DNA from: Turicibacter bilis
Lineage (GTDB): Bacteria; Bacillota_I; Bacilli_A; MOL361; Turicibacteraceae
DNA: 64,000 nt
Assembly (NCBI RefSeq): GCF_024499055.1
Contig: NZ_CP071249.1
Coordinates: 62,001 to 126,000, forward strand
Reading direction: 5' to 3'
The notes below the pieces were generated by a model. The model searched no databases. It saw only the letters and a program-made list of their open reading frames with translations, and had not been told where the DNA came from. The translations under genes and the position numbers were made by a program. Positions 31,454 through 49,370 of this stretch are shown here, piece after piece (position 1 is the stretch's first letter; each line of letters starts with the position of its first letter).

Positions 31454-31493
31454 AAAATAAGCTATCAAGAGTTATGGCCGGATGGCTTATTTT
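31454..31493 (+). terminator. Terminator of the lipoprotein gene
   Basis: AAATAAGCTATC and GATGGCTTATTT arms around a 15-base loop, ending in TTTT. Confidence 0.6.
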
Positions 31494-31684: not shown

Positions 31685-32123
31685 TCCCGCTACTATGAAA
31701 ACTACTAACTACATCTTCCCTAATAAACACAATAAAACATGGATAGGCTAATCACGTTGATACGTCATTAGCCTTTTGTTATTGGATTTTTCACATTAGA
31801 ACTTTTATCATCACTAAACATGTAATCTTTCCAGTTCGCCTCATATCGTACCGATATTCGAGCGTAGGCAATTGATGTTTAGTGGTTATAGTTAATAGAG
31901 GTTGCATCTAGTAGCGGGAGGAATCTTTCTATCCCAAGTAGTAATCTTAGTACATGGTTTTCATGAAGCTGCTAACTGTTGCTTTGCAAGAATTAGCAGC
32001 TTCATGATCTAAACAGTTATTTATGAAGTGATAATTATTCATAAAAAATTATCACTTTTCAAATCAAATGATATATAACGAACCATAAGAAAACCAACAC
32101 GGCATCAATGCGGTGTTGGTATC
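31685..32123 (+). ncRNA. Structured unit 1
   Basis: Complete unit: closing pair 31685-31693/31911-31919; hairpin GGCTAATCACG/CGTCATTAGCC (31745-31772); stem CACTAAACAT/ATGTTTAGTG (31811-31883) with inner ATATCG/CGATAT; hairpin TCATGAAGCTGCTAA/TTAGCAGCTTCATGA (31961-32007) capped by GTTGC/GCAA; an A/T hairpin (32025-32060); tail hairpin CCAACAC/GTGTTGG. Confidence 0.65.
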
Positions 32124-32174
32124 TATAATCATTGAAATAGTAATATAAAAGGGGATTGAACTAATCATGAATTA

Positions 32175-32607
32175 TCCCGCTACAAGTGAGTATCTAACTT
32201 CAATAATCCTAAACATAAATTAACCAATGGATAGGCTAATCAGATTTCATATCATTCGCCTTTTCTCATTGGATTTTTCATCCATAAATAAGAGTGGTCA
32301 CTAAATATTCAACCCCACCAGTACCTCCCATACCAGCGTATGGTGAGGGTATGGGCTTGATATTTAGTTTTTATATCTAATAGAAATGACAAAAAGTAGC
32401 GGGATAATTATTTCAATACCTAGTAATCGTCTTTGTACTAGGGGGATAAAGTGCTAACTGTTGCAGCAGCAAGAATTAGCACTTTATCATTCTAAGACTA
32501 AATTTATAAATAGTTAAGGGTTCATCAAACACACGCATTCTTCTAAGTGGAGTATTTCCTCACAAATAATAGGAAAACCCACACGGCACGAGTGCGGTGT
32601 GGGTATC
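32175..32607 (+). ncRNA. Structured unit 2
   Basis: Complete unit. The inner stem is CACTAAATAT/ATATTTAG where unit 1 has CTAAACAT/ATGTTTAG. The apical hairpin CATACC/GGTATG occupies the place of ATATCG/CGATAT. The long hairpin is GATAAAGTGCTAA/TTAGCACTTTATC and the tail stem is CCCACAC/GTGTGGG. All are paired replacements relative to unit 1. Confidence 0.65.
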
Positions 32608-32658
32608 CTTAATCAGTTGAAACTCGGATTTAAAAAGCATTTAAACTAATCAGCATTA

Positions 32659-33183
32659 TCCCGCTACAGGAAAATTTCTAACTACATTTCCCCTAACTAT
32701 CCCTCCACCAAGGCCTCTATCCTACGGATATTCTTGGCGGGTGGAGTTGCTATTTAGGTTCATTTAATCACGATAATTATTACATTAGAATAGAAAATCG
32801 ATAGGCTAATCATGTATCCACATCATTAGCCTTTTCTTATTAGATTGTTATCACTAAAATTTAATAATCACTAACCATTCAATCCACCTATTGCTTAAAT
32901 ACTTCGTATGTTTATAGCAGGTGTCTTGATGTTTAGTGTGTTTATGGAATTAAGAGGGTTACATAGTAGCGGGAACGTTCTTTTCTTTATACCAAGAGAT
33001 AGTCTTAGTTTATAGCAAGTGAATACGCTCAACTGTTGCTAGTAGCAACGATTGAGCGTATTCATTATAAATACATATAAAGAAGATAGTCTGACTAAAC
33101 GGATATTTCTTCTGATAGATAGGTTAATTCACATACATAGAATAATAAGAAAACCCAAACGGCATGGATGCGGTTTGGGTATC
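32659..33183 (+). ncRNA. Structured unit 3
   Basis: Complete unit with the extra 5' module: CCACC...ATCCTACGGAT...GGTGG ending CTATTTAGG (32693-32758). The long hairpin is GTGAATACGCTCAA/TTGAGCGTATTCAT and the tail stem CCCAAAC/GTTTGGG, again compensatory to other units. The sequence after it reaches AATCAGGATTAT, the lead-in of a next unit, and then turns into the MBL gene segment. Confidence 0.65.
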
Positions 33184-33451
33184 AATATTTGATTAGAATA
33201 GAGATATAAAAGGATATTTAGATAATCAGGATTATTGTGGTATAATTCTCCTTAAAAAACTATATCTTTAAATGTATTACTCTTTATACTCATTAATTTG
33301 AGTACATTTTTATGTTAATTTTTAAATATATCAATTAATATGGTTATTTTTAACAATTAGATGTTGTGATTTATGGAATTCTCTTGTAATATTTATTGAA
33401 AGTTAATTTTTGTGGAAAATAAATAAATGTAAATAGGAAGGGTGTTTCAAG

Positions 33452-35437
33452 GTGTTAAACAAGATTTTTAATTGGTGGAAAAGTCTAAGTGAAAAACAAA
33501 AAGGGCTATGTATCTTATTTTTACTACTAGCATTACCTATTATTTTTGTAGCAGGTCTATTTCTATTTATACTTATTCCATTTATTGTAATGCTTGTAGC
33601 GTTTATTTTACTAGTTTTAGCATTATTCAAACGCGATAAAAGAAGACAGTTTGGAATATCATCGCTAATAGCTTTTATTATTTCAGTATCAACATTTTCT
33701 ATGGTAGATATGTTTATGCAATCAGATATGATGAATACTGAAGAAGAAACTGTTAATGTTGATCAACTTGAAGAATCTGAAAAAGAAACTTTAGCAGTAG
33801 GTTCGATACATGAAAATGAGACAATCAATCATTTACTCAGTGAGTTAAATGCTAAGTATGGAATTGGCTTAACTGAAGAATCTTTTACCGAGAAGGTACA
33901 AGATATTAAGGTATCATTTCAGCTTAATGGCGTAGATATTTCAGTTAGTGATACAGATAAGAATCTGTTTATTGAACTGAATCAAACGGTTAAAAAAGAT
34001 AACGATGGTGCATTGCTTGAAGGGTTTAGACAACTAATGTCGGCTTTAAGTTTACCGATTTCAAATACTGATTTTAATAAATTAGTATCTGAGTTAAAGA
34101 CATATCAGTATCAAGATTATAACAAATATACGATTAATGATTCAGATTTTACACTTAATCGTCAAGAGTTAGAAAATGATGAAGTCAAATTAACAATTAA
34201 AGGTCAATTATCTAAAGCGGACTTGTTCAAAGCTTCAGATGTTGATTATAAATTAGAGTTAGGTAAAGTTGAAACAGATAAAAAAGAAGAGTCTAATGAG
34301 GAAATTAAAAACGAGACAACAGAGCAATCAATTCAAGAAGCGGGAGATAATAGTTCACCTGTAACTCAACAAGTTTCAGGTGATACAAAAGTTCACTTTA
34401 TTGATACTGGTCATTCAGATTCGGTTTTAATTGAGAATAATGGAAAGTTTGCTTTAATTGATGCGGGAGATCGAGATGATGATACTACAGTTAAGTCTTA
34501 TTTAACTGGACAAGGTGTTAAACGTTTAGAATATCTCATTATTACTCATTTCCATGCTGATCATTTTGGTGCAGCAGATACAGTTGTGACAGACTTTGAA
34601 GTGGGAACAACATTTGTTTCAAATGGAAATGCTGATACACAAGTCTATCAAGATTTTATTAATTCCTTGTCAAATAAAGGTTTAAAACCAAGTGTTCCAT
34701 TAGAAGGTGGAGAGGTTTCTTTAGGAAATGCCACATTAACCTTCTATAATACAAGAGGTGGAAATTCTAATGAAAATAATAATTCATTAGTAACGCTTCT
34801 TCAAAGTGGTTCAAGACAAGCATTATTTACAGGTGATGCAGAAAGCCAAGTTGAAGCAAACTTAACCAACATTGGAGATGTTGATTTATTCAAAGCAGGA
34901 CATCATGGTTCTGACACAAGTAATACATCTAGTTTATTAAACCGTATTAAACCTGAACACGTAGTTATTATGGCAGGTGCTAATAATAAGTATGGACATC
35001 CAAGTGCTGAGGTAATGAATCGTTTTAAAAGCTTAGGAATTCCTGTTTATCGAACAGATGAACAAGGCACAATCATTGTTACTTTAAGTGAAGATGGTGT
35101 CTCAGTAGACAAAGAACCGGGAAGCTATAAATCAGGAGATGGAACACAAAGCTCAAGTAGTACATCAAGCAATTCATCGAATAGCACATCAAGTGAAGCG
35201 TCAAGTAATTCATCAAATAGTACGTCAAGTGAATCATCTAGTCAAGAGTCTACAACAACTCAAAATAAAGACGATAATCCAAATGGAGTACATAATCAAC
35301 AATCAACAGCTCCTCAACAGTCTTATCAAAACTGTACATTACTAAGACAAGATTATCCAGATGGTGTGCCACAAGGACATCCAGCCTATGCATCGAAGCA
35401 TGATCGAGACAAAGATGGTTGGGCATGTGAACGTTAG
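33452..35437 (+). CDS. Membrane-anchored MBL-fold hydrolase with Ser-rich linker and Excalibur domain
   Basis: The 661-residue protein starts at GTG 33452 after GGAAGGG. Two to three N-terminal helices (residues 18-80) are followed by a soluble region of 240 residues, then a ComEC/Rec2-type metallo-beta-lactamase domain (K-V-H-F-I-D-T-G-H-S-D, I-T-H-F-H-A-D-H-F-G, A-L-F-T-G-D-A, K-A-G-H-H-G-S-D), a Ser/Thr-rich linker and a calcium-binding Excalibur domain with D-R-D-K-D-G-W-A-C-E at the very end. ComEC-like MBL domains are linked to DNA degradation on uptake; here it has no channel domain. It lies inside the RNA-like array, replacing the 5' part of unit 4. Confidence 0.8.
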   Translation: MLNKIFNWWKSLSEKQKGLCILFLLLALPIIFVAGLFLFILIPFIVMLVAFILLVLALFKRDKRRQFGISSLIAFIISVSTFSMVDMFMQSDMMNTEEETVNVDQLEESEKETLAVGSIHENETINHLLSELNAKYGIGLTEESFTEKVQDIKVSFQLNGVDISVSDTDKNLFIELNQTVKKDNDGALLEGFRQLMSALSLPISNTDFNKLVSELKTYQYQDYNKYTINDSDFTLNRQELENDEVKLTIKGQLSKADLFKASDVDYKLELGKVETDKKEESNEEIKNETTEQSIQEAGDNSSPVTQQVSGDTKVHFIDTGHSDSVLIENNGKFALIDAGDRDDDTTVKSYLTGQGVKRLEYLIITHFHADHFGAADTVVTDFEVGTTFVSNGNADTQVYQDFINSLSNKGLKPSVPLEGGEVSLGNATLTFYNTRGGNSNENNNSLVTLLQSGSRQALFTGDAESQVEANLTNIGDVDLFKAGHHGSDTSNTSSLLNRIKPEHVVIMAGANNKYGHPSAEVMNRFKSLGIPVYRTDEQGTIIVTLSEDGVSVDKEPGSYKSGDGTQSSSSTSSNSSNSTSSEASSNSSNSTSSESSSQESTTTQNKDDNPNGVHNQQSTAPQQSYQNCTLLRQDYPDGVPQGHPAYASKHDRDKDGWACER

Positions 35438-35463
35438 AATGATTAAATAAGTCATTAACAAGA

Positions 35464-35506
35464 AAAAGACAGTCAAGTAGCATAAAGTTACTTAACTGTC
35501 TTTTTT
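35464..35506 (+). terminator. Terminator of the MBL-Excalibur gene
   Basis: GACAGTCAAGTA/TACTTAACTGTC with a nine-base loop and TTTTTT. The same type of terminator recurs at 52901 and 53419, pointing to a shared gene-cassette family. Confidence 0.8.
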
Positions 35507-35578
35507 AATTTATTTAAATTTCAAAATGGAAAAAGGAAAATGATTGATTAGGTTGTATTGTATAGTGAGGTGATACAC

Positions 35579-35719
35579 ATGACAGATAAACAAAAACAAT
35601 TTGAAGAAAGATTGGAATCATTAATTTTATTAAAGGCTTTGCTGATTAAAGATAATAAATTTTATGAAGTAGCACAAAAAGAGTATCAAGAAGCAAGGGA
35701 AAGAGCCTTGGTATATTAA
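35579..35719 (+). CDS. Very small helical protein, paralogue of 52241 gene
   Basis: A 46-residue protein M-T-D-K-Q-K-Q-F-E-E-R-L-E-S-L-I-L-L-K-A after GTGAGGTGA. It is clearly related to the 48-residue product at 52241 (Q-F-E-E-R-L, L-L-K-A-L-L-I-K-D-N, E-V-A-Q). It probably folds as a two-helix hairpin. Function unknown. Its last residues differ from the other copy because the sequence there passes into the array unit. Confidence 0.55.
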   Translation: MTDKQKQFEERLESLILLKALLIKDNKFYEVAQKEYQEARERALVY

Positions 35720-35730
35720 CATAAATCTTA

Positions 35731-35947
35731 GTAGCGGGAGATTTTTTCTTTATACTCAGATATACTCTTAGTTTATAGCAAGTGAATAAGCCTCAACTAT
35801 TGTTTTGCAACGATTGAACCTTATTCATTATTAATAGATTTAAATAGGAGTGTTTTAATTAAAGAGTATCTTCTTCTGCTAGATAGGTAGGTATTTATAC
35901 TTAGAATAGTAAGAAAACCCAAACGGCATGAATGTGTTTTTGGTATC
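35731..35947 (+). ncRNA. Structured unit 4, 3' part only
   Basis: Begins with the closing strand GTAGCGGGA (35731-35739); the matching 5' strand and inner domain are absent, replaced by the segment 33241-35719. The long hairpin is GTGAATAAGCCTCAA/TTGAACCTTATTCAT with a looser stem, and the tail hairpin CCCAAAC.../...TTTTTGGT has lost pairs. It looks like a decaying remnant. Confidence 0.5.
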
Positions 35948-35993
35948 CATGCTTTTATAGTGATATAAAAGAGGAGTAAGATAATCAGAATCA

Positions 35994-36308
35994 TCCCGCT
36001 ACAAGAATTCATCTAATTACATTTCACCTAAATATCAATCCACCTATGTCACATCATGCTGATGTTTGGGTGAGGTGGAGTTGCTATTTAGGTTCTTTTA
36101 ATAACTATAACGATGACATTAGAATAGACATTGATAGGCTAATCATGCTCACACATCATTCACCTTTTCATATTAGAATTTTAGCACTAAAACTATGGTT
36201 CTTACTAACCATCAATCCTCCGAGTTTCCTACATACTGACGTATGTTAGGCGTGGAGTCTTGATGTTTAGTCTTTTCATTTAATAAAAAGAATTTCAAAG
36301 TAGCGGGA
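35994..36308 (+). ncRNA. Structured unit 5, lacking standard 3' hairpins
   Basis: Inner domain complete: closing pair 35994-36002/36300-36308; 5' module CCACC/GGTGG with ACATCATGCTGATGT apex; ACCATCAATCC/GGAGTCTTGATG part. After GTAGCGGGA the usual two hairpins are missing; instead a distinct 390-bp segment follows. Confidence 0.55.
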
Positions 36309-36701
36309 AATATCCACGTATAAAACTAGGACTAGAAAAGTTAATCGGTATTTTTTGCATATCGTGTCATGATATTCAATAGGCAACGATAGAACAGTTG
36401 CTGTTAATTTATCAAAATAACCTAGCTAATGACAGCTAGGCTTTTTCTTTCAGTTTTCAGACATAAAAAAAGAAGAACAGCTGACTAGGCTGTTCTTCAA
36501 CCAACAAACCAAACAAACCAAATAAAAGAGAAATAACAATCAAAGTTATAACTTTTTAATTCGTTACATAAATAGTATATCACAATTCATTCGTAGTTAC
36601 CATATAAAACTAGAATCAGAAAAGTTACACAGCATATCATACCGTTTAACTCTCCTTGAATGAATAGCATCTTAGGGTGCCCAGTTTCTAAACCAAACTC
36701 A
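36309..36701. other. Non-array segment with two terminator-like hairpins and a direct repeat
   Basis: TATAAAACTAGGACTAGAAA at about 36319 recurs, slightly changed, at 36604 (TATAAAACTAGAATCAGAAA), each followed by AGTTA and GCATAT. Between the two copies are hairpins CCTAGCT/AGCTAGG (36421-36441) with T-run and AGAACAGC/GCTGTTCT (36474-36496). No gene is visible. The direct repeat suggests an insertion of about 285 bp. Confidence 0.5.
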
Positions 36702-37213
36702 TCCCGCTACAAGTGAGTATCTAACTTCAATAATCCTAAATATAAATTAACCAATCGATAGGCTAATCATGCAAGTGCATCATTAGCCTTTTCTTATTGA
36801 TTGCTAAGGTGCAAATCTAACGATTTTTGCACTTAGCGAATAAATTTATTTTTAAACTAGATGATCCCTAACCATTCAATCCTCACTCATGCCTTCCATA
36901 CTAGCATATGGTTAGGGCGGTGAGTCTTGATGGTTAGCTTTGTATTTAACAAAGGTTATAGCATGGTAGCGGGAGAGTGTTATTTATTTACAAAGAGTAA
37001 ATCTAAGTATATAGAATTTGATAAAGCCCAACTGTTGCAAGAAGCAACGATTGGGCTTTATCATTATCAACAATGTTATAAGGATTTAAATAACGGTTCA
37101 AAAATGAACGGTTATTTACTCAGATTACTAAACGATACCTACTGATTAAAGAAGTAGTAATTATAGCAAGACAGATAAGAAAACGAACACGGCAAGCTTG
37201 CGGTGTTGGTATC
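36702..37213 (+). ncRNA. Structured unit 6
   Basis: Complete unit with the optional GCTAAGGTGCAAAT/TTTTGCACTTAGC hairpin (36803-36838). Inner stem CTAACCAT/ATGGTTAG. Long hairpin TGATAAAGCCCAA/TTGGGCTTTATCA, tail GCAAGCTTGC inside CACGG/CGGTG. An extra hairpin AATAACGGTTCA/TGAACGGTTATT (37088-37115) is shared with units 7 and 12. Confidence 0.65.
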
Positions 37214-37252
37214 CATGATGTTTTGAGATAGAGATATAAAAAAAATGCCCCG

Positions 37253-37825
37253 TTAGAAACGATAAACTGTAATATAGGGAGTATGTATAGGTTCGATGTA
37301 ATTTAATGATCTTGTTGGACCTTTCCACTTCTCGAATTTTTTTCTTCTTTTTCCCATTAAATTAGATTTTTCGTTGTTGATTGCACTAATTTCTATTTCA
37401 ACATCATGTTTCTTTTTCTTTTTCTTTGTATGTGAATTTATGTACTCTTGATATTCTTTCCGTAAGAATTCATTATGATTATTTATAATTAGTTGATATT
37501 TGGTTTTCTCTAAATAGCATAATCCTTTAATTTTCTCAATTTGATTTAAAGAAACTTTCTGCTTTATATCTACAACAGATGTAAATTTCAAACCTTCTGA
37601 CTGATGTATAAGAATTTCAGGATTACTTTTTGTTTTTTTAAAATTTTGTTTGGTTTTTTTAGTGTTTTTTGTTGTTGAGGAAAAAGTAGTTTCGTAGTTG
37701 GGATTATATTTATATAGGCGTAATCCAAAATAGATATTATTTGATTTGATGATTAATATTGGAACTACTTTCTTATTTGGTAATCGTCCAAGTATGATTT
37801 CAGATTCATTAAAGTGTTTATTCAT
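37253..37825 (-). CDS. Hypothetical basic protein between array units
   Basis: A 190-residue, lysine-rich protein (M-N-K-H-F-N-E-S-E-I-I-L-G-R-L-P-N-K-K), with K-K-T-K-Q-N-F-K-K-T-K and K-K-K-K-K-K stretches and a beta-rich start (P-I-L-I-I-K-S-N-N-I-Y-F-G-L). It is encoded opposite to the array. The charge suggests nucleic acid binding, but no known domain is visible. The start at 37825 has AATGAGCGATAAAA upstream, a weak site. It lies precisely between the tail of unit 6 and the lead-in of unit 7. Confidence 0.5.
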   Translation of the reverse strand: MNKHFNESEIILGRLPNKKVVPILIIKSNNIYFGLRLYKYNPNYETTFSSTTKNTKKTKQNFKKTKSNPEILIHQSEGLKFTSVVDIKQKVSLNQIEKIKGLCYLEKTKYQLIINNHNEFLRKEYQEYINSHTKKKKKKHDVEIEISAINNEKSNLMGKRRKKFEKWKGPTRSLNYIEPIHTPYITVYRF

Positions 37826-37971
37826 TTTTATCGCTCATTTCTGTAGTTTTTATAAATTCCCCATAGAGTCCAATCTGTATAGGTAAAGTTTAACACTGGA
37901 AATAAATGGTGTAAAGAGGGGTGAACAGTCGTGATAAAAATTTTAAAAGATATGAACAGTAAGCAGGAGCA

Positions 37972-38476
37972 TCCCGCTACAAGAATTATTCTAACTTCAA
38001 TTCCCGCTACTAATATTAAATAGATAGGCTAATCATGTTCGCACATCATTAGCCTTTTCTTATTTGATGCTAAGGTGCAAATCTAACGATTTTTGCACTT
38101 AGCGAATTCTTTTAAAATAAGACGTTCCCTAACCATTCAATCCCTTTATTTGCCCCACATCATGCTGATGTTAGGGGCTTTAGGGCTTGATGTTTAGGTG
38201 TTGCTTAATAGAGGAGGCTTCTTAGTAGCGGGAGAGTGTTCTTTCTAATTACAGACTAAATCTGAGTACATAGAATTTGATAAAGCCCCAACTGTTGCAG
38301 GGCGCAACGATTGGGGCTTTATCATTATCAACCATATTATAAATAAGGACGTAAATAACGGTTCAAAAATGAACGGTTATTTACTCAGATTATTAACCGA
38401 TATCTACTGATTGAAAAGATATTCTTTATAGTAAGATAGTAAGAAAACCAACACGGTAGACTACGGTGTTGGTATC
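37972..38476 (+). ncRNA. Structured unit 7
   Basis: Complete unit, with a second nested TCCCGCTAC at 38002-38010. From about 38054 it is nearly identical to unit 12, but the GTTGC-loop-GCAAC cap and the GTAG/CTAC tail cap differ from unit 12 by paired changes. Inner stem CCCTAACCATTC...CTTGATGTTTAGG. Confidence 0.65.
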
Positions 38477-38526
38477 CATGTCTTTTGTGATAGGGATAGA
38501 AAAGATGATTGAAGTAACCCTAGGCA

Positions 38527-38770
38527 TCCCGCTACAAAGGAAGATAAAATCTTATCCCCAAAAGAAAGAGTCACTAAATGATCAATCCCACCGATTCACC
38601 CACCTATTGCATATGGCGGATGTGGTGTGGCTTGATATTTAGTTGTTGTATTTAACAAAGGTCATTCAGCGTAGCGGGAAATTACCTAACGATTTAACAC
38701 TAGAAAATATTTAAAAGTATGAAAAAAGCCCTAATGATTGCAGGGGGAAGCAACGATTAGGGTTTACTTT
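38527..38770 (+). ncRNA. Structured unit 8, shortened
   Basis: Closing pair 38527-38535/38671-38679 encloses only the CACTAAATGATC/CTTGATATTTAG stem. The long hairpin AAGCCCTAA/TTAGGGTTT follows (38726-38766). The standard tail hairpin is absent; the next 170 bp contain only short inverted repeats such as AAGTGCTA/TAGCACTCT and CACTTTATT/AATAAGTG. Confidence 0.55.
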
Positions 38771-38940
38771 AATGTAAGTATATAATTATAAGGAAGAGTA
38801 GAAAGTAAATTTTTTTATAAGTGCTAGGGGGAGTAGCACTCTAATGTTATTGGCATAAATGTTTAAAAGTATTCACTTTATTGAAAATAAGTGATGATCG
38901 TGCCTTCATTAACAAGAGAGTATCTGACTAACCATAGGTG

Positions 38941-39382
38941 TCCCGCTACCATTCGTGATTAAACTTCAAGGCTTCTTAATAACAACAAGTAAATGGATAG
39001 GCTAATCATGTCAGAAGATAATTAACATCATTAGCCTTTTCTTATTGGATGTTTTATCTTAGAACAAGACAATCACTAAGCATCAATCCCCTTATTTGCC
39101 CATATCGTGCCGATATTGGGGCGTTGGGGTTTGTTGCTTAGCTTTTTTGTTTAACTAAGATTATTCAACGTAGCGGGACAGGATGTTTAATGCCTAGCGA
39201 TCTTCTTCATACAAGGGGGCATGAAGCAGCTAACGGTTGCTTTGCAACGATTAGCGCTTCATGACTCTAATTCTAACTTTCTAAAAAGTTAAGGTTTCAT
39301 AAAATACACGCATTCTTCTAAGCGAGAGAAGGAGTCACAAGCCATAAGAAAACCAACACGGCATCAATGCGGTGTTGGTATC
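38941..39382 (+). ncRNA. Structured unit 9
   Basis: Complete unit. Inner stem CACTAAGCA/TTGCTTAG, with G-C replacing the A-T or C-G pair seen at this position in other units. Apex ATATCG/CGATAT. Long hairpin CATGAAG...GCTAA/TTAGC...CTTCATG; tail CCAACAC/GTGTTGG with GCATCAATGC cap. Confidence 0.65.
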
Positions 39383-39433
39383 CATGATCATTAGGAGATA
39401 GATATAAAAGGGAGTGGAACTAATCATGAACTA

Positions 39434-39568
39434 TCCCACTACAAGAACTTATCTAACTACATTTCACCTAAATATCAATCCCCCATACTTCTATCCTAAC
39501 GGATATTCAGGTGCGGTGAATGTGCTATTTAGCTTGTTAGTTAACAAAAGGAATTTCTAATAGCGACA
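39434..39568 (+). ncRNA. Structured unit 10, decayed
   Basis: Opens with TCCCACTAC (one change) and holds the 5' module ATCCTAACGGAT with CTATTTAG, but the closing strand is reduced to ATAGCGACA and no 3' hairpins follow. The next 140 bp are plain AT-rich sequence leading into a protein gene. Confidence 0.45.
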
Positions 39569-39706
39569 GATTTTTAGTTAATATAAATAATATATGAAAT
39601 AGATTAAGTTAGTGGTGAATTATTAACTAGAATATAAAAATATAGGGAATATCCACCTAGTTATTAGCATATACATTAGGGAACAAGTAATAAATGGGGG
39701 ATAAGT

Positions 39707-40105
39707 ATGAAAAAATATATGAGTAATGAAGAGTTTTGTAACTGCCATACTATCGATCATCGAGATTTTTATAAGATTGATGATGAACTAGAAAGAAAAA
39801 ACATTAGGGATATAGAGAGTAAAATCAAATATGTGAGAGAAAATTATGGTGGACAAATCTATATGAACTTTGTTTTAAGAGAATTAGATGATATTATTTT
39901 AATGAACTACCATCAAGTGAATGATGAGTACAGGTTTTCAAAATGTGCAGTGGATGGGTTACTTCGTTCATATCTATTTGCTACACAGTATATGCAAGAA
40001 GGGTTACCAGAACATGCATATGACTATATAAAAGGAAAAGCTAACTCATTTATAAATGAGTTATTAGAGCAGTATAAACAAAATGAAAATTTAAAGGATA
40101 TCTAG
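39707..40105 (+). CDS. Hypothetical acidic protein between array units
   Basis: A 132-residue protein (M-K-K-Y-M-S-N-E-E-F-C-N-C-H-T-I-D-H) preceded by AATGGGGGATAAGT. It is mostly helical by composition, with many Glu, Tyr and Asn; no membrane segment or known motif. It occupies the gap between the decayed unit 10 and unit 11, in array orientation. Function unknown. Confidence 0.5.
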   Translation: MKKYMSNEEFCNCHTIDHRDFYKIDDELERKNIRDIESKIKYVRENYGGQIYMNFVLRELDDIILMNYHQVNDEYRFSKCAVDGLLRSYLFATQYMQEGLPEHAYDYIKGKANSFINELLEQYKQNENLKDI

Positions 40106-40197
40106 ATAAAATTATATTACAGATGATTCAGGAAACTTAATGATTATATACTAGGCTTTTTAATACAATGTAAAAACGCTATAACTAATCAGAATGA

Positions 40198-40642
40198 TCT
40201 CGCTACCATGTAGCATTTTTATTTCAATGTTTCCTAATAACAATAAGTAAATGGATAGGCTAATCACGTTCACACGTCATTAGCCTTTTCTCATTGGATT
40301 TTTAGCACTAAAACTATGGTTCTTACTAACCATCCATCCTCCGAGTATCCGACATACTTGCGTATGTTCGGAGTGGAGTCTTGGTGGTTAGTTTCTATGT
40401 TGAATAAAGAAGATTTCAAAGTAGCGGGAAAATTAGTTCTTTACTGAATGTTTATCTTAGTAAATGATTTCATGAAGTGGCTAACTGTTGCTTTGCAACG
40501 ATTAGCCCTTCATGATCCTAAACAGTTATTTATAAAAATTTTGTTGTTCATAAAAAATTATCACTCTTCAAGTAGAATAATCAATCACAAATAATAAGAA
40601 AACCAACACGGCACGGGGGCGGTGTTGGTATCCATGATGTTT
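40198..40642 (+). ncRNA. Structured unit 11
   Basis: Opening strand is CTCGCTAC (one change); closing GTAGCGGGA at 40421. Hairpin GGCTAATCACG/CGTCATTAGCC; stem ACTAACCATCCATCC/GGAGTCTTGGTGGTTAGT with apex CATACTTGCGTATG; long hairpin CATGAAG...GCTAA/TTAGC...CTTCATG; tail CCAACAC/GTGTTGG with GGCACGGGGGCGG cap. Confidence 0.65.
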
Positions 40643-40684
40643 TGAGAAAGAAATCAAAAAGGCACTAAGAATAAGCATAAACTA

Positions 40685-41276
40685 TCCCGCTACAAGAAAG
40701 TATCTGACTACATTTCCCCTAAATATCAATCCACTTCCGTCATATCCTGCGGATATTTTGGAGCAGTGGAATTGCTATTTAGTGTTATTTAATAATCATA
40801 TTAATCCCGCTATATTAAAGCATGGATAGGCGAATCACATTGATAAGTCATTCGCTTTTTCTTATTTGATGCTAAGGTGCAAATCTAACGATTTTTGCAC
40901 TTAGCGAATTCTTTTAAAACAAGACGTTCCCTAACCATTCAATCCCCTTATTTGCCCACATCATGCTGATGTTGGGGGCTTTAGGGCTTGATGGTTAGGT
41001 GTTGCTTAATAGAGGAGGCTTCTTAGTAGCGGGAGAGTGTTCTTTCTAATTACAGACTAAATCTGAGTACATAGAATTTGATAAAGCCCCAACTGTTGTT
41101 ATACAACGATTGGGGCTTTATCATTATCAACCATATTATAAATAAGGACGTAAATAACGGTTCAAAAATGAACGGTTATTTACTCAGATTATTAACCGAT
41201 ATCTACTGATTGAAAAGATATTCTTTATAGTAAGACAATAAGAAAACCAACACGGCAAGTCTGCGGTGTTGGTATC
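40685..41276 (+). ncRNA. Structured unit 12
   Basis: Longest unit: closing pair 40685-40693/41026-41034, 5' module CCACTTCC.../...GCAGTGG with ATATCCTGCGGATAT apex, nested TCCCGCTAT at 40804, hairpin GGCGAAT/ATTCGC where most units have GGCTAAT/ATTAGCC, optional GCTAAGGTGC hairpin, then a 3' half almost identical to unit 7 but with GTTGT/ACAAC cap. Confidence 0.65.
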
Positions 41277-41328
41277 CTTGATTTTTTGAGAAATAAATTA
41301 AAAAAGCATTAAGAATGAGCATGGAATA

Positions 41329-41851
41329 TCCCGCTACTATGGAACTATCTAACTATATCTATCCTAAATATCAATCCACCTGCGCCATATCCTACGGATA
41401 TTTTAGACGGGTGGAATTGCTATTTAGGTGCATTTGCTAATTCTAAGCCTCCTGCAACAACTAAACCAAGGATAGGCTAATCATGCAAGTGCATCATTAG
41501 CCTTTTCTTATCCTATCTTTCATCCCAAAACAACGTCATCACTAAACATCAATCCCCAGTGCTACCATCCTTGCGTATGGTTAGGGCGTGGGGATTGATG
41601 TTTAGCTGTTTTTGTTTAATAGAGGAGACTGCATCGTAGTGGGAGATATTCCCTTCTATACAAATGAAAAACCATAGTTCATAGAATTTGAAATCCCCCC
41701 AACGGTTGCTAGGCAACTATTGGGGGGATTTCGTTATAAATAAAAATATAAATACAAACCCGTTACTAAATCATATCTTCTGATTAAAGAAGAAATTAAT
41801 GTAGCAAGAACAATAAGAAAACCAAAACGACAGGAATGTGGTGTTGGTATC
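41329..41851 (+). ncRNA. Structured unit 13
   Basis: Closing strand is GTAGTGGGA (G-T pair in place of G-C). 5' module ATATCCTACGGATAT; hairpin ATGC/GCAT within GGCTAAT/ATTAGCC; stem CACTAAACATCAATCCCC/GGGGATTGATGTTTAG; long hairpin GAAATCCCCCCAA/TTGGGGGGATTTC; tail hairpin partly degraded. Confidence 0.6.
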
Positions 41852-41900
41852 CATCGTGTTTTGAGATAGATTTAAAAGGTGATAGAAATAACCATAGGCA

Positions 41901-42055
41901 TCCTGCTCCAAAGGAAGATAAAACCTTATACCCCAAAAGAAAGAGTCACTAACCATTCAATCCATCTATTGCCTTACCTATTACATACGGTGTGGGCATA
42001 TGTCTTGATGTTTAGTTTTTTATTTAACAGGGGGTATTTCGGTTAGCATCCACGT
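41901..42055 (+). ncRNA. Structured unit 14, decayed end of array
   Basis: Opening strand is TCCTGCTCC; only the CACTAACCATTC/CTTGATGTTTAG stem with a reduced apex is recognisable. No closing strand or 3' hairpins. It resembles unit 8 in layout (AAAGGAAGATAAAA, CCCCAAAAGAAAGAGTCACTAA). Confidence 0.45.
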
Positions 42056-42832
42056 TCATATACATGTTACAAGTGATTTTCAAGATATATGATATTAAAA
42101 AATTATATATACCATAAATTAAAAGATATGTAATAAAGCTTATAAGAATTGGAGAAACATTTAATTCAATAGAGATGTGATTTAGCATAAGAGATGGTGA
42201 ACCGTATCATAAATAGGGGATAGTTTTACTGAATTTGGAAGTATCGATGAAAGATGTTTAGAGTAAATATTTATATGTATGCTTAGTGGTAAAAGTATAC
42301 ATATAAATAGGCTGTGTTTTAAATAAATGTTGATGCCTGAAATCGTTGATATCATCAAGTTTGATTAACTAATCCATGAACATCATACACGCTGAGTTCA
42401 TGATTTTAGTTAAAGATCAACACTCTTCTAAAACAGAGCCTATAAATAAAAGAATCTGAGAAATTAGATAAGATTTAGATATTAATTGGTACTATAGGGA
42501 GTTAAAGGATAATATTTAATTTTTTTGCATTATGGGCTTTGGGAAACTTGCTTTTATATCCAAAAGCTTTTTTATTTTCAAATAAGCGAAAATAGACATT
42601 AATATAAAATTATTTAAATTGTCTAGTCTATTTGCTTGAAGTTGATTAATTCAGTAAGAACTAAACTAAGAATTTAATTTAGTTACAAAATATGAACTTT
42701 AATGAAAACTACTTAAATATAGTTAGAATCTAACTGTATTTATTGAAGGAATATTGAGGAGTGAAGAGAATTATGATAGAATTAGTATAGTATCTAATAA
42801 TAATTTGATACATGATAATGAGAGGTCAAAAG
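42056..42832. other. Non-coding interval before the restriction-modification operon
   Basis: AT-rich, holding one MITE-like insertion (42307-42443) and the leader of the controller gene. No gene is supported. Confidence 0.45.
42307..42443. mobile_element. MITE-like insertion with 28-bp terminal inverted repeats
   Basis: The left end ATAGGCTGTGTTTTA and the right end TAAAACAGAGCCTAT are inverted copies, and similarity continues inward to ATGTTGAT/ATCAACAC. ATAAAT flanks both ends outside AGGCT/AGCCT, a possible target duplication. The ends resemble those of ISL3-type elements (GGCTCTGTTT); there is no coding capacity. Confidence 0.65.
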
Positions 42833-43054
42833 ATGCACATTGATTATAAAAAATTATGGATAATGTTAATTGAAAATAATATGAGTAAAAGTGAATTGAG
42901 AAAGAAAGCAAAGCTTTCAGCAGGTGTGTTTACACGTTTAAATAAAAACGAGGATGTATCATTGGCTGCTTTAAAAAACATATGTGAAATACTAGAATGT
43001 GATATCGGAGACATCTGTAGTTTTGTTGATAATGTTGAAGGTGAGGAAAAATAA
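42833..43054 (+). CDS. XRE-family controller protein of the restriction-modification operon
   Basis: A 73-residue HTH protein from ATG 42833 after GAGAGG: I-D-Y-K-K-L-W-I-M-L-I-E-N-N, N-M-S-K-S-E-L-R-K-K-A, then V-S-L-A-A-L-K-N-I-C-E-I-L-E-C-D-I-G-D-I. This is the YozG/Cro-like type often found as regulator upstream of DNA methyltransferases. Its stop codon overlaps the next start (TAATG), so both are coupled. Probably it adjusts expression of the operon when the element enters a new host. Confidence 0.75.
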   Translation: MHIDYKKLWIMLIENNMSKSELRKKAKLSAGVFTRLNKNEDVSLAALKNICEILECDIGDICSFVDNVEGEEK

Positions 43055-43959
43055 TGTTTAGGACAGTCGATTTATTTTGTGGGTGTGGCGGAATGTCACT
43101 CGGATTTCAGAATGCAGGATATGATATTCTTGCAGCGTATGATAACTGGAAGCCTGCAGTTGAGACTTATAGAAAGAATTTTAAGCACATAATATATGAG
43201 AGAGATTTATCTGATGAAAGTATAGTATCAGAAGTTGCTAGTTTTAAGCCACAGATTATTATTGGAGGACCGCCTTGTCAAGATTTTTCATCAGCAGGGC
43301 ACCGTGATGAAACGCGGGGTAGGGCTATACTTTCAAAGACATATACTGATATCGTTACGACAGCAATGCCAAAGTATTTTGTAATGGAAAATGTACCAAG
43401 AATCAGAGTTAGTGATATATATAAGAATATTTATAATATATTTAAAGAAAATGGATATGGATTGACAGAGAAAATTTTAGATGCAAGTCTTTGTGGTGTA
43501 CCACAAAAAAGAAAAAGATTATTCCTTATTGGTTGTTTGGGGGCAAAAGACAATTTTTTATCGGATATATTAGATGCGGGATTATCAAAAAAACCAATGT
43601 CTATTCATGACTATTTAGGTGATTCACTTGGTGTAGAATATTACTTTAGGATTCCGAGAAGCTATAGTAGAAGAGCAATTTTTAGCATTTATGAACCATG
43701 TGTTACGATAAGAGGTGTGGATAGACCCATACCACCAAACTATAAAAAGCATCCTCAGGATTTAGTTGATATAGGTCCAGAGGTAAGAGCTTTGACACCA
43801 AAAGAAAGAAGTTATATCCAAACATTTCCAGAAGAATTTATATTTGAAGAGAATAGAACAAATACAAATCAGATGATTGGCAATGCTGTACCTGTAAAAC
43901 TGGCAGAATATATTGCAAATGCAATTTTAGAATACGAGAATGGATGTGAAGATGATTAA
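43054..43959 (+). CDS. DNA (cytosine-5) methyltransferase 1
   Basis: The 301-residue enzyme shows all main C5 motifs: I (D-L-F-C-G-C-G-G-M-S-L-G-F), IV (G-G-P-P-C-Q-D-F-S with catalytic Cys), VI (M-E-N-V), VIII (Q-K-R-K-R-L-F-L-I-G), a short target-recognition region and IX/X (G-N-A-V-P-V-K-L-A-E-Y). It is short for the family, so the target domain is compact. The downstream gene encodes a close paralogue. Arginine codons are mostly AGA, unlike the chromosomal genes. Confidence 0.92.
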   Translation: MFRTVDLFCGCGGMSLGFQNAGYDILAAYDNWKPAVETYRKNFKHIIYERDLSDESIVSEVASFKPQIIIGGPPCQDFSSAGHRDETRGRAILSKTYTDIVTTAMPKYFVMENVPRIRVSDIYKNIYNIFKENGYGLTEKILDASLCGVPQKRKRLFLIGCLGAKDNFLSDILDAGLSKKPMSIHDYLGDSLGVEYYFRIPRSYSRRAIFSIYEPCVTIRGVDRPIPPNYKKHPQDLVDIGPEVRALTPKERSYIQTFPEEFIFEENRTNTNQMIGNAVPVKLAEYIANAILEYENGCEDD

Positions 43960-44845
43960 TACTATAGATTTATTTTGCGGATGTGGTGGTATGTCTTGCG
44001 GATTTCAAAATGCAGGATTTAATATTATGGAGGCTTATGATATTTGGGATGCTGCTATAAAAATATATGAGAAGAACTTTAAACACCCAGTTTATAAAAA
44101 AGATCTTAATGATGATGATACAATTGAAATACTAAAAGGGAAAAAACCAGATATAATAATTGGAGGTCCTCCTTGCCAAGATTTTTCAATTGCCGGCAAT
44201 AGAAAAATGGGGGAAAGAGCAAATTTAACTATACGATATGCACAAATTATTGCGGCTATAAAACCAAAATGGTTTGTCATGGAAAATGTATACAACATAG
44301 AAAGGATGCCTATACTTCCAGAAGCAATAAAAATTTTTAAAGAAGCAGGCTATGGAATTACGAGCAAGGTGCTCGATGCTTCTCGATGCGGTGTTCCTCA
44401 GAAAAGAAAGCGATTTTTTTTAATAGGGAATATTGAAGCACAAGATGGATTTTTAGATGAAATACTTGAAACAAATCTCAGTGAAAAGCAAATGACTTTA
44501 TATGATTATCTTGGAGATTCACTTCAAACAGAATTTTATTATATGCATCCTCGTAGTTATAATAGACGAGCTGTATTTAGCATTTATGAACCGAGTGCAA
44601 CAATAAGAGGGGTTAATCGTCCTATTCCTAGTGGTTATCAACGTCATAATGCTGATAAAGCTGATATATCAGAGGGAGTAAGAAGTCTTACAACAAAGGA
44701 ACGCAGTTATATACAAACATTTCCAGAAGAGTTTGAATTTGTGGGAAGTAAGACAGTAATGGAACAAGTAATTGGTAATGCAGTTCCAGTTAAACTTGCG
44801 GAATATGTAGCTAATTGTATTTTAGAATACAAAGAAAGGGGGTAA
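43952..44845 (+). CDS. DNA (cytosine-5) methyltransferase 2
   Basis: The 297-residue paralogue of the preceding enzyme begins M-I-N-T-I-D-L-F-C-G-C-G-G-M-S-C-G-F at ATG 43952, overlapping the previous stop by eight bases. Motifs IV (G-G-P-P-C-Q-D-F-S), VI (M-E-N-V), VIII (Q-K-R-K-R-F-F-L-I-G) and X (I-G-N-A-V-P-V-K-L) are intact. The two differ most between residues about 175 and 210 and in the motif IV-VI interval. Paired C5 enzymes usually modify the two strands of an asymmetric site. Confidence 0.92.
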   Translation: MINTIDLFCGCGGMSCGFQNAGFNIMEAYDIWDAAIKIYEKNFKHPVYKKDLNDDDTIEILKGKKPDIIIGGPPCQDFSIAGNRKMGERANLTIRYAQIIAAIKPKWFVMENVYNIERMPILPEAIKIFKEAGYGITSKVLDASRCGVPQKRKRFFLIGNIEAQDGFLDEILETNLSEKQMTLYDYLGDSLQTEFYYMHPRSYNRRAVFSIYEPSATIRGVNRPIPSGYQRHNADKADISEGVRSLTTKERSYIQTFPEEFEFVGSKTVMEQVIGNAVPVKLAEYVANCILEYKERG

Positions 44846-44847
44846 CA

Positions 44848-47442
44848 ATGATTAATTATTCTGCACTTCAACAACAGATAAAAAATTTAGGTGAGAGTGA
44901 AGGAACACCAACTTTTTTGCATCAATTTTTACAAATTTATAATATTCCTAAAGCTACATTGATGAGACTTAATATTACAGATGGTGTAAAGACAGATGTT
45001 GAAGTATGTGTTACAAATAAGTTGGTTTATATGTTTACGTTAAATGAAAATCTATATACTCGATATAGTGCGTTACAAAAGAGAAAGAATACGACAAGTA
45101 AAGCAAGAATTGTAATGCTAATGAATACAAGAGAAATCTTGGCATTTGATTCTAAGACAAGTGATTGGCTCTCGTGTCCAATTAAGGAACTGTATAAGGA
45201 GTGCGATTTCTTTTATCCACTTATGGGAATGGAGCGAGCAATACTCAATGATAGAAAGACTGTCGATGTAAAAATTGGAGAAAAATTTGCACAGTTTTAT
45301 AACGAGATGCTTGTCTTAAATGCTGGAAAAGAGGAATCTTTGAAGATGTTATTAACAGCTCTTATTACAGCATTTTTTGCAGATAGTTTTGATATTGTAA
45401 TGCAGAAATCTATTTTTTACTGGTTAACTAAGTATACCAAAACAGATGGAAGTGATGTTTCTAGTTTCTTAGATGACTTTTTTAGAGCATTATATGAAGA
45501 TAAAGAACAAAGCGATGATTATATTGGGTCAAAGATTAATAATACAATTTATGGATTAGAATTATCACCACTTGAGCTGAATTTCAATAAATCTACTAGA
45601 AAAATTTTGATCGAAATAAGTGAGTTTGATTGGGCTGATGTTGAGCCTGAAGTATTGGGAGCACTTATTCAAAATATAGCATTTCCAGAAGAAAAGGCTG
45701 TTGCTTATAACTATACAAGCACAGCCAATATTTATAAAGTTATTGGACCACTATTTATGGATGATTTAGATACAGAGTTTGAGAAGATAAAAAAGGGACA
45801 AGTATCTGGAGTAGATTTTTTAAAAAAATTATCGAGAATTAAAGTTTTAGATCCAGCATGTGGTACAGGTAATTTTTTGATGATTTCCTACAAAGAATTA
45901 AAAAGACTTGAATTATATGTAAAGGATTATTTAGAATCTCAAGAGATTCCTTATGAAAGAAAAGAATATGTTGTTTTAGAAAACTTTTATGGTATTGAAG
46001 CTAATGGTTTAGCTTCAATAATAACAAGAATTGGTTTACTGTTTAGCAAGTTAAAATATGAAACAGCAGATATAGCAACGTTAAGGTTGCCAGATCATAA
46101 TATCATAAACAATATAGCTACGGATGTAGAATGGAATAGTTTTTGTCCAAAGTCTGGATATCAAGTGTTTATTATAGGCAATCCATCATACAAAGGAAAG
46201 GACCTTAGTACTAAACAAAAAAATGCTATGGGTAGGGTATTTGCTGATGAAATAAAAAATGGAGTAAAGATTGGGGAATTAGACTACTGTACATGTTGGT
46301 TTTATTTAGCAAGTGAATATATAAAAGATAGTAATTGTGCGTTTGCTTTTGTTACAACTAATTCTTTGACACAAGGTACTCATGTTCCAGTATTATGGCC
46401 AATGTTATTTAATAAAGGAATTTGCATATCATTTGCTTACTCCGCATTTAAATGGAAAAATGGTGGAAAAAATAATACAGCTGTAACAGTTGTGGTTATT
46501 GGATGTAGAACAATTATGTTTCCACACCATAAGACTATTTATAGAAATGACTTAGTGTATGATGCAGATGATATTAGTCCATATTTAACTAAAGGTAATG
46601 TTATTATTCAAAAAGAAAATAGGGCACCTATTAGTAAACAATTACCTAAGATGATAAAAGGTAATATGCCTTACGGAGAAGCCCTATTATTAACACCAAA
46701 AGAAAAAGATGAACTTGTTAGCATATACCCAGAATCAATTAAATTCCTAAGACGTGTGGTAGGAGCTAATGAATTTATAAAGGGAATCGAAAGGTGGTGC
46801 TTATGGATTTCAGATAATGAATTAACAGAGGCAATAAGTATTCCACTTATTGCAGACAGAATTGAAAGAGTAAGGGAATATCGACTAGATAGTAAATGCT
46901 CTGCTCAAATGAAAGAAAATCCACATCGTTTTCGAGAAATACATATACCACAGAAGTATACACTTGTAATTCCGGCAGTTTCATCAGAAAATAGAGAATA
47001 TTTTCAAATTGGTTATGTAGGAAGAGATGTTGTTGTAACCAATCTATGTTTTACTATTTATGATGCAGAACCATGGGTGTTTGGTATTATTTCGTCAAAG
47101 ATGCATAATTTATGGGCAAGAATAGTATGTGGAGGTTTAGAAACGCGACCTAGATATTCCAATGTATTAGGTTATAATACATTTCCGCTACCTGAGTTAA
47201 CAAAAGAACAGAAACAGGACATTTCTAAAGCTTCATTACAGGTGATTTTAGAACGAGAAAATCATTCGGAAATGACTTTAAGAGACTTATATAATGAAGA
47301 TACTATGCCACAGGGATTAAAATATGCACATAAATTATTAGATAAAGTTGTAGAGAGCTGCTATAAAAAAGAAGAATTTTGTTCTGATCAAGAAAGACTT
47401 GACTCGATGTTTTTATTATATAAAACCATAAAGGAGGGGTGA
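44848..47442 (+). CDS. MmeI/YeeA-like adenine DNA methyltransferase, apparently without nuclease motif
   Basis: The 864-residue protein has motif I D-P-A-C-G-T-G-N-F (about residue 340) and motif IV I-I-G-N-P-S-Y (NPPY variant), followed by S-L-T-Q-G-T-H-V-P-V-L-W-P and A-F-K-W-K-N-G-G-K-N-N-T-A-V, typical of the MmeI/YeeA type IIL enzymes. The N-terminal domain aligns by style (A-R-I-V-M-L-M-N-T-R-E-I-L-A-F-D) but where MmeI has an E-x-K nuclease site I read V-E-V-C-V-T-N-K-L-V-Y, so cleavage is doubtful. A target-recognition region makes up the last third. It overlaps no neighbour; RBS AAGGGGGT lies before ATG 44848. Confidence 0.8.
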   Translation: MINYSALQQQIKNLGESEGTPTFLHQFLQIYNIPKATLMRLNITDGVKTDVEVCVTNKLVYMFTLNENLYTRYSALQKRKNTTSKARIVMLMNTREILAFDSKTSDWLSCPIKELYKECDFFYPLMGMERAILNDRKTVDVKIGEKFAQFYNEMLVLNAGKEESLKMLLTALITAFFADSFDIVMQKSIFYWLTKYTKTDGSDVSSFLDDFFRALYEDKEQSDDYIGSKINNTIYGLELSPLELNFNKSTRKILIEISEFDWADVEPEVLGALIQNIAFPEEKAVAYNYTSTANIYKVIGPLFMDDLDTEFEKIKKGQVSGVDFLKKLSRIKVLDPACGTGNFLMISYKELKRLELYVKDYLESQEIPYERKEYVVLENFYGIEANGLASIITRIGLLFSKLKYETADIATLRLPDHNIINNIATDVEWNSFCPKSGYQVFIIGNPSYKGKDLSTKQKNAMGRVFADEIKNGVKIGELDYCTCWFYLASEYIKDSNCAFAFVTTNSLTQGTHVPVLWPMLFNKGICISFAYSAFKWKNGGKNNTAVTVVVIGCRTIMFPHHKTIYRNDLVYDADDISPYLTKGNVIIQKENRAPISKQLPKMIKGNMPYGEALLLTPKEKDELVSIYPESIKFLRRVVGANEFIKGIERWCLWISDNELTEAISIPLIADRIERVREYRLDSKCSAQMKENPHRFREIHIPQKYTLVIPAVSSENREYFQIGYVGRDVVVTNLCFTIYDAEPWVFGIISSKMHNLWARIVCGGLETRPRYSNVLGYNTFPLPELTKEQKQDISKASLQVILERENHSEMTLRDLYNEDTMPQGLKYAHKLLDKVVESCYKKEEFCSDQERLDSMFLLYKTIKEG

Positions 47443-47447
47443 TTCAG

Positions 47448-49370
47448 ATGACTGAAAATATAGTCAACGTAAATTATGAAGCAACTGGGAAGAGTATACA
47501 GACAAATAAACTGGGAATGAGAGAGATGCAAGCTAAGGCATATGAAGCTAGAAATGCACAATATTTGCTTTTGAAAGCACCTCCAGCATCAGGAAAGTCA
47601 AGAGCTCTTATGTTTATTGCATTGGATAAACTAAAAACAAAACAGGTATCTAAGGTAATTGTTGCGGTGCCTGAACGTTCAATAGGTGGCTCATTTAAAA
47701 ACACAAAATTATCTGATTTTGGATTTCACAGTGATTGGATAGTAGAAGATGAATATAACTTATGTCTTCCGGGAGGAGAGTCAAGAAAGGTATCAGCATT
47801 AGGGCGTTTTTTGGATTCTGATTCTGATAAGTTAATATGTACGCATTCTACATTAAGATTTGCATTTGATAAATTTGGAGTTACAAAGTTTAACAATTGT
47901 CTAATTGCAATTGATGAATTTCATCATGTGTCAGCAAACTACGAAAGTAAATTAGGTGAGTTAGTACGAATGCTAATGGACAGCACTAGTGCACATATTT
48001 TGGCTATGACTGGTTCTTATTTCAGAGGAGATGGTATTCCAGTTTTAATGCCAGAGGATGAGGCAAAATTCTACAAGGTTACTTATAATTATTATGAACA
48101 GTTGAACGGTTATACTTTTTTAAAATCGTTAGGAATTGGATTTCATTTTTATCATGGGCGTTATACAGAGGCAATTGATGAAGTACTTGACACAAATAAG
48201 AAAACTATTCTGCATATACCTAATGTAAATTCAGGGGAATCGACTAAAGATAAGTATATTGAAGTGGATACAATCCTTGACAAAATTGGAGAGATTGTTG
48301 ATGTTAATAGTGAAACTAATATTATTTCTGTAAAGCGAACAGATGGAAAAATTATTAAAGTAGCAGATTTAGTGAATGATAATGCGACTGAAAGAGAGAA
48401 AACAATAACTTTTTTAAGGAATGTATCCTCGTTGGATGATGTAGATTTAATTATTGCATTAGGCATGGCAAAAGAAGGATTTGATTGGAAGTACTGTGAA
48501 CATGCATTGACAGTCGGATATAGAGGATCATTGACAGAAATAATTCAGATTATTGGAAGGTGTACTCGGGATAGTAGTAATAAAACCCATGCACAATTTA
48601 CTAATCTTATAGCCGAACCAGATGCCGAAAATAACGAAGTTATTGAGGCTGTTAACAATATGTTGAAGGCTATAGCGGCCTCATTACTAATGGAACAAGT
48701 TCTTGCACCAAATTTTAATTTTAAGCCAAAGAATGGTGATGATACTACTAATAGTAGTAAAACTATAAAAATTAAAGGCTTGAGAGAACCTATAACACCA
48801 AGAGTAAAGAATATTTTGGATTCAGATTTAACTGAATTAAAGGCAAGCATTTTACAGGATCCTGATATGGTGAAGTCATTCTCAGGAGCAGTAGATACTG
48901 ATGTTATCAACCATGTATTTTTACCAAAGATTATAATGACAAAATATCCTGACTTGCTAGATGATGAGGTGGAGACAGTAAGAGAACATCTTGTGGCGGA
49001 TATGGTTATTAGGCATTCTGAAAAAAGTACTCATGGAGATAAAAGATTGATTAAGTTGGTAGATCAATTTATAAATATTGAAGAGTTAAGTATCGATTTA
49101 ATTGATTCAGTTAATCCGTTTCAACAGGCTTATGAAGTGATTTCAAAGAATATGACTCCGAGAGTATTAAAATCTATTCAGGAATGTGTTGCAGCATTTA
49201 AAGTTAATATGACAGATGATGAAGCAATATATTTATGGCCTAAGATTCAAGAGTTCGTTAAAGTAACCAGAAGACATCCTTCATTGGATGCATTGGATCC
49301 ACATGAAAGACGATTGGCAGAAGCACTTGTGTATTTACGACAAGTTAAAAGGGAGCAGAAAAATGAATAG
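47448..49370 (+). CDS. SF2 DEAD/DEAH-type helicase of the methyltransferase operon
   Basis: The 640-residue protein has Walker A A-P-P-A-S-G-K-S-R (about residue 48), Walker B I-D-E-F-H-H, motif III M-T-G-S-Y-F-R-G and motif VI Q-I-I-G-R-C-T-R-D, so both RecA-like domains are complete. The C-terminal 230 residues are helical and unassigned. AAGGAGGGG ends six bases before ATG 47448, inside the previous stop. Helicases of this kind in restriction systems move or unwind DNA for a nuclease; here the nuclease would be the next gene product. Confidence 0.85.
   Translation: MTENIVNVNYEATGKSIQTNKLGMREMQAKAYEARNAQYLLLKAPPASGKSRALMFIALDKLKTKQVSKVIVAVPERSIGGSFKNTKLSDFGFHSDWIVEDEYNLCLPGGESRKVSALGRFLDSDSDKLICTHSTLRFAFDKFGVTKFNNCLIAIDEFHHVSANYESKLGELVRMLMDSTSAHILAMTGSYFRGDGIPVLMPEDEAKFYKVTYNYYEQLNGYTFLKSLGIGFHFYHGRYTEAIDEVLDTNKKTILHIPNVNSGESTKDKYIEVDTILDKIGEIVDVNSETNIISVKRTDGKIIKVADLVNDNATEREKTITFLRNVSSLDDVDLIIALGMAKEGFDWKYCEHALTVGYRGSLTEIIQIIGRCTRDSSNKTHAQFTNLIAEPDAENNEVIEAVNNMLKAIAASLLMEQVLAPNFNFKPKNGDDTTNSSKTIKIKGLREPITPRVKNILDSDLTELKASILQDPDMVKSFSGAVDTDVINHVFLPKIIMTKYPDLLDDEVETVREHLVADMVIRHSEKSTHGDKRLIKLVDQFINIEELSIDLIDSVNPFQQAYEVISKNMTPRVLKSIQECVAAFKVNMTDDEAIYLWPKIQEFVKVTRRHPSLDALDPHERRLAEALVYLRQVKREQKNE

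Follow-up and report, generated by a model that had tools for sequence, protein, structure and literature searches.

Several described systems bring accessory genes together with folded DNA or with a phage-type gene set, and the locus analysed here can be compared with five of them. It lies in a stretch of 64,000 nt from Turicibacter bilis (NZ_CP071249.1, positions 62,001–126,000, forward strand), referred to below as the window, whose numbering is used for all positions given without a contig name. Phage satellites (PICI etc.) share with the element found here an integrase, a repressor, a replication gene, their own small terminase, defence cargo and insertion in a conserved host gene, and neither capsid nor large terminase genes were found in the element; in contrast to them it measures 34.8 kb and carries holin and endolysin genes, an HUH rolling-circle Rep and an array of multiple DNA hairpins. 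As far as can be judged from predicted genes, the element fits the phage satellites on gene content, a decayed prophage being possible. Integron attC arrays likewise consist of folded sites whose pairing is imperfect, with mismatches and tips that vary, all in one direction and with unrelated accessory genes between them, whereas the present array comes with no IntI, has several hairpin types per unit, many gene-free units and another site sequence; it is not an integron, although it may work like one through a presumed exchange. What appears to be the nearest published mechanism is the qacC model, in which cargo is mobilised between rolling-circle origins and which was put forward for small plasmids that each have a single dso and a single sso (PMC5037232; the function of the sso is described in PMC5714925). 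In both cases the genes are flanked by structured DNA resembling origins, and rolling-circle replication may move them without a transposase, but here tens of modules are found in a chromosomal element. REP/BIME sequences with their RAYT share imperfect, mismatch-bearing hairpins in inverted pairs; here, however, the sites are not scattered over the genome, no RAYT was found and each unit has five to seven hairpins. SCC elements, which encode paired Ccr recombinases, likewise have a pair of large serine recombinases side by side and a region in which cargo builds up, whereas this element has a phage-type repressor, Rep, SSB, small terminase, lysis genes, other insertion genes and the hairpin array. 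Literature searches yielded no description of such hairpin arrays.

The element interrupts the competence gene comGA, the C-terminal half of which (18500–18919, minus strand) and the N-terminal half (53712–54170, minus strand) are found on its two sides, and alignment of intact comGA from four relatives across the joint placed the insertion near the Walker-A codons. From the recombinases to the endolysin the genes form one block, followed by the array and then by a restriction-modification cluster (Table 1). A serine recombinase of the element is 37% identical to the integrase of Listeria phage A118. Among the scanned ORFs of the element, none for a capsid, tail, portal or large terminase protein was found; a few of its small ORFs match no family, and an unrecognised structural gene may still be among them. 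The palindrome CTTTAACGAACTTGTATAGGATATTAACAAGTCG, just upstream of rep (approximately 23752–23785), is conserved in four of the four element copies compared; as a candidate Rep origin it is preferable to the array. Hairpin P4 of the array, which often holds CTTGAT, was rejected for this role, as the motif is not strictly conserved and the conserved palindrome lies upstream of rep instead. Also rejected was the array motif TCCCGCTAC as the core site of the serine recombinases: the comGA joint has the similar TCCCGCTTC, yet this stretch differs in the intact comGA of the relatives, and the likeness is therefore taken as chance. Between SSB and the small terminase, 27523–28495 is a noncoding, palindrome-bearing stretch conserved with the corresponding gaps in contigs L093, L094 and L095; a packaging site would be possible there. 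An ORF of 53 aa has two copies in the element (35558–35719 and 52229–52369; 75% identical) and a further one next to the genome's second array (L030:2469–2609).

Five genomes of the genus, one per species, were compared (G000, that of the window, to G004). G001 carries the gene block (Rep, SSB, small terminase and serine recombinases) as well, G003 has two copies of it, and two IMG/VR contigs also contain it, the small terminase having no match in the G003 stretches that were read. In every chromosomal case (G000, G001 and both copies in G003) an array lies downstream of the block in the same direction, and the IMG/VR contig L093 likewise ends in array sequence. Neither Rep nor the sites are present in G004; in the draft genome G002, Rep was not found and a single P3 relic remains. 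No hairpin sites were found in any other of the 395 genomes sampled from the class, and within G000 all sites found are confined to two arrays. The second of these starts beside a small-terminase fragment (L030:2886–3002), with no intact gene block, and is thus probably a decayed copy of the element. Two identical mutator-family transposase genes lie within this array (L030:14933–16156) and just after it (L031:4550–5773). Neither a search of plasmid and phage records with unit DNA nor a scan of genome and viral contigs for the exact P3 pattern gave a match, close relatives perhaps being absent from the records; a related Rep is encoded in MT836660 and MT837226, two phage records in which there is no comparable noncoding array. 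The Rep and SSB of the element also occur together in a tailed phage, in its early region. Insertions of the element family were seen at Walker-A-like codons of different ATPase genes, the names being read from translations in L093–L097: comGA here (19020–19060 and 53715–53745), apparently comFA in L093:1–446, and a PLD/helicase gene in L094:424–1171, L095:3300–3430 and L097:6600–6745.

Table 1. Features of the element and its hairpin array, in positions of the 64,000-nt window.
Feature	Position	Strand	Description
Integrated element, ~34.8 kb	18920..53711		In comGA Walker-A region; joints near 19039 and 53726
Two adjacent large serine recombinases (463, 452 aa)	19078..21815	-	Resolvase and Recombinase domains; phrog_95 integrase
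CI-like repressor	21888..22517	-	HTH and peptidase S24
Rolling-circle replication initiator (Rep, HUH)	23811..24764	+	PF23343, phrog_3584; FHLHL in translation
SSB	25435..25986	+	PF00436
Small terminase subunit	28495..28854	+	PF05119; 35–37% identical to phage small terminases
Phage holin and amidase endolysin	28892..30228	+	Domain/family matches
Hairpin-module array	31683..42030	+	Module searches and maps; one direction throughout, cargo genes between some units
P3 hairpin with two arm types	32226..32274	+	99.8% copy common with second array ends inside; joint 32242
Metallo-beta-lactamase fold (MBL) and Excalibur protein	33452..35437	+	Replaces P1a–P4 part of a unit
P3 hairpin with mispaired arms	36129..36177	+	95.8% copy common with second array begins inside; joint 36141
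Cargo gene, 190 aa	37253..37825	-	No known family
Unit 7	37972..38476	+	P1a 37972–37980 (second copy 38002–38010), P3 38019–38068, extra hairpin 38069–38103, P4 38126–38203, P1b 38225–38233, P5 38278–38324, P6 from ~38357, P7 ~38440–38476
P5 tip, unit 7	38294..38308	+	Unit 12 counterpart 41095–41107
P7 tip, unit 7	38456..38464	+	Inside conserved G.G mismatch
Cargo gene, 132 aa	39707..40105	+	No known family
Unit 12	40685..41276	+	P1a 40685–40693, P2 40692–40793, P3 40821–40870, P4 40928–41004, P1b 41026–41034, P5 41072–41131, P6 from ~41156, P7 ~41238–41276
Two cytosine methyltransferases, type IIG MmeI-like enzyme, helicase, T5orf172 protein	43054..50547	+	Cargo
Lone P1a-hairpin-P1b module	51324..51433	+	Far side of restriction cargo

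Modules of the array were defined by profile searches and by mapping of the units. A unit consists, in this order, of P1a (TCCCGCTAC), an optional P2, P3, P4 (related to P2), P1b (GTAGCGGGA), P5, P6 and P7. In each of P3, P5, P6 and P7 a mismatch separates the outer stem from the inner tip, and this mismatch is conserved as C.C in 36 of 38 P3 and as G.G in 32 of 34 P7 hairpins. P3 and the reverse complement of P7 represent the same type of site, with GGATA, a 7-bp stem, the C.C mismatch, the tip and TTTTCTTAT within 40–44 nt. The stems covary over approximately 30–56 copies per hairpin; folding of the tested P3, P5 and P7 hairpins as single-stranded DNA gave z-scores of −2.9 to −7.6, and controls with shuffled partners or slid structures did not reproduce the pairing. 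The order of the modules is altered in the G003 array at 655–663 kb (L036:6999–7217, 13325–13480, 13783–13966 and 15010–15234), where P3 stands ahead of TCCCGCTAC, a P5-like hairpin was scored on the other strand and P7 is missing, which indicates that modules can be rearranged.

Units 7 and 12 had originally been predicted to be recent duplicates, almost the same from about 38054–38476 and 40862–41276. Alignment bore this out for 38056–38476 against 40858–41276, near-identical over approximately 420 bp; it also showed that the common stretch is not the whole unit but runs from the right arm of P3 to P7, the flanks on both sides (the P1/P3 region upstream and all sequence past P7) being without match. 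The P5 tip reads GTTGC-AGGGC-GCAAC in unit 7 and GTTGT-TAT-ACAAC in unit 12, the last pair having changed from C-G to T-A in both arms, and the P7 tip reads GTA-GAC-TAC and GCA-AGTC-TGC, respectively, with T-A replaced by C-G, again in both arms. The twin stretch shows 14 change events. Seven of them fall in the tips, which make up 19 of 415 aligned positions (4.6%; binomial p = 1e-6), while none falls in the outer stems (34 positions) and seven fall in the remainder (356 positions). The predicted concentration of changes in tips with kept pairing was thus confirmed: the differences are not evenly spread, and the changed tip stems are compensated on both sides. The same ranking was obtained when 54 pairs of units sharing 85% identity or more were compared, pairs that overlap and are not independent, with differences per site of 18.2% in tips, 4.5% in outer stems and 9.9% at all other positions. 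Of the two causes that had been offered, structural selection is supported by the stems kept paired and by the conserved mismatches; recombination at the tips gained indirect support as exchange with hairpins as joints, but the swapping of whole tip cassettes was not shown, and template switching or nicking at the hairpin end could equally alter both arms of a tip. The idea that the tips serve as addresses found no support, since they vary freely and neither a partner sequence nor a reader of the tips was found.

The recent duplications were read base by base. A stretch of 560 bp, 99.8% identical between the two arrays some 350 kb apart, begins at CCTCCCGCTAC and ends in the P3 with mixed arms, while a copy of 470 bp begins inside a second, mispaired P3. 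Two further copies begin exactly at TCCCGCTAC with unrelated sequence upstream, and one of them ends at a P5 tip. In all, two recent joints lie in P3 hairpins and three exactly 5′ of TCCCGCTAC, these being few joints in alignments that tend to end in the variable tips. The second array, approximately 350 kb away, also contains a third near-identical version of the unit's central part (L030:14184–14455), which shares 97.8% identity with unit 12. The sequence common at the joints, about 9 to 16 bp, is short for RecA; homologous recombination driven by the repeats could account for part of the mosaic. Exchange in which the hairpins act as joints is supported indirectly by these recent joints and by the extent of the twin stretch of units 7 and 12, from P3 to P7.

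All large arrays hold cargo between their modules. Over the arrays this cargo comprises restriction systems, the MBL-Excalibur protein, GNAT, a two-component system with DsbD and a riboflavin operon; in the second array of G000 it includes an MFS transporter followed by a translation GTPase of the tetracycline ribosomal-protection-like type (L030:8095–11299). Weak matches of the MBL-Excalibur protein (33452–35437) to the defence-associated MBL families LmuA and RTasMBL were noted. Arrays of two species contain a GIY-YIG nuclease-like protein of 276–278 aa (L033:6740–7576 and L035:9648–10478; 87% identical), placed after P1b in both, and this protein is a possible mobility factor. Elsewhere the borders of cargo were not sharp in the cases read. 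The arrays do not follow a rule of one gene per cassette, gene-free units being common, some genes lying inside units and one operon having several genes.

The reading preferred here, which is held tentatively, is that DNA hairpin modules which shuffle cargo, rather than RNA genes, make up the array, and that the array serves a phage-satellite-like element as its cargo zone. It rests on the covarying, mismatch-bearing hairpins with their fast-changing tips, on the identity of P3 with the reverse complement of P7, on the linkage to the block of Rep, SSB, small terminase and serine recombinase genes, and on the cargo between modules and the joints at hairpins. The alternative that survives best, unlikely as it seems, is that the modules serve a long rolling-circle element as single-strand or lagging-strand origins, as packaging signals or in some similar replication role, and that they were multiplied in tandem and mixed by ordinary repeat recombination, with cargo being incidental. 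Every array is indeed oriented as Rep, a long displaced strand would gain from multiple start points, and the invariant GTAGCGGGA resembles the CS-6 motif TAGCG(T/A) of plasmid ssoA. Against this alternative, three recent joints start exactly at the 9-bp motif and are preceded by unrelated sequence; in addition, many modules are degenerate or split by cargo, and the second array has been retained without an intact gene block.

That each unit is instead the gene of a large structured RNA, multiplied in tandem, is improbable, even though strong multi-hairpin folds extend across 500–600 nt and covariation is strong. RNA stems accept G-U but not A-C pairs, and hairpins acting as DNA need no such bias. 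In P3, P4, P5 and P7, excluding the columns of the conserved mismatch and the pair that closes the P7 loop, 23 G-T and 32 A-C pairs were counted, whereas 27 distinct tRNA sequences of this genome, counted over their acceptor and T stems, gave 28 and 2, respectively (Fisher p = 1.8e-6, a guide only because the copies are related). With covariation but no wobble bias, unlike tRNAs, the array hairpins look like DNA hairpins and not like RNA. The equivalence of P3 with the reverse complement of P7, which exists only at the level of DNA and would be senseless for RNA, argues in the same direction, as do the differing module orders of the arrays and a search of Rfam 15, in which no credible match for the units was obtained at gathering or relaxed thresholds. 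Template-switch correction of quasi-palindromes was considered as a source of the covariation and set aside: it could also give covariation without wobble pairs but would erase the conserved mismatches, and these persist. If the DNA reading is right, counts of G-T against A-C pairs can help to separate DNA from RNA hairpins in covarying repeats.

The least credible explanation is that the array is a genuine integron or of the CALIN type, or that MITE/REP-type sequences were nested here by a tyrosine recombinase or Y1 transposase. In its favour are the one-directional folded sites with mismatch, variable tip and cargo between them, and the presence of Y1 transposases in the array-bearing genomes and their absence from G004. 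Against it, IntI (TIGR02249) had no match above the cut-off in the five genomes, which gave only Xer-type hits, as did all control genomes; alignments read by eye gave no consistent match to the attC R and L boxes (RYYYAAC / GTTRRRY) and showed no attC-type R boxes; the Y1 copies read are ordinary IS200-type elements far from the arrays, no RAYT being found; and the sites found in G000 all lie in two arrays instead of being scattered.

Under the preferred reading of DNA hairpin modules that shuffle cargo, the element would be excised and replicated by Rep, and the displaced single strand would fold into hairpins. Folded sites would then be cut or mis-copied and rejoined, by which modules and cargo could be shuffled within and between arrays; tip changes that leave the pairing intact would arise as a side effect of cuts or template switches where the hairpin ends, combined with selection for the fold. 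More speculatively, this may amount to a cassette-capture system unrelated to integrons, in which the rolling-circle strand of a satellite-like element folds into hairpins of several kinds and these serve as joints at which cargo and defence genes are collected and shuffled, the candidate enzymes being Rep, either of the paired serine recombinases or a structure-specific nuclease of the host. If true, this would explain why the tips vary while their pairing is kept, and single-stranded DNA would be the working form of the array. The genus would then stack accessory and anti-phage genes via folded DNA sites on phage parasites, in parallel to integrons.
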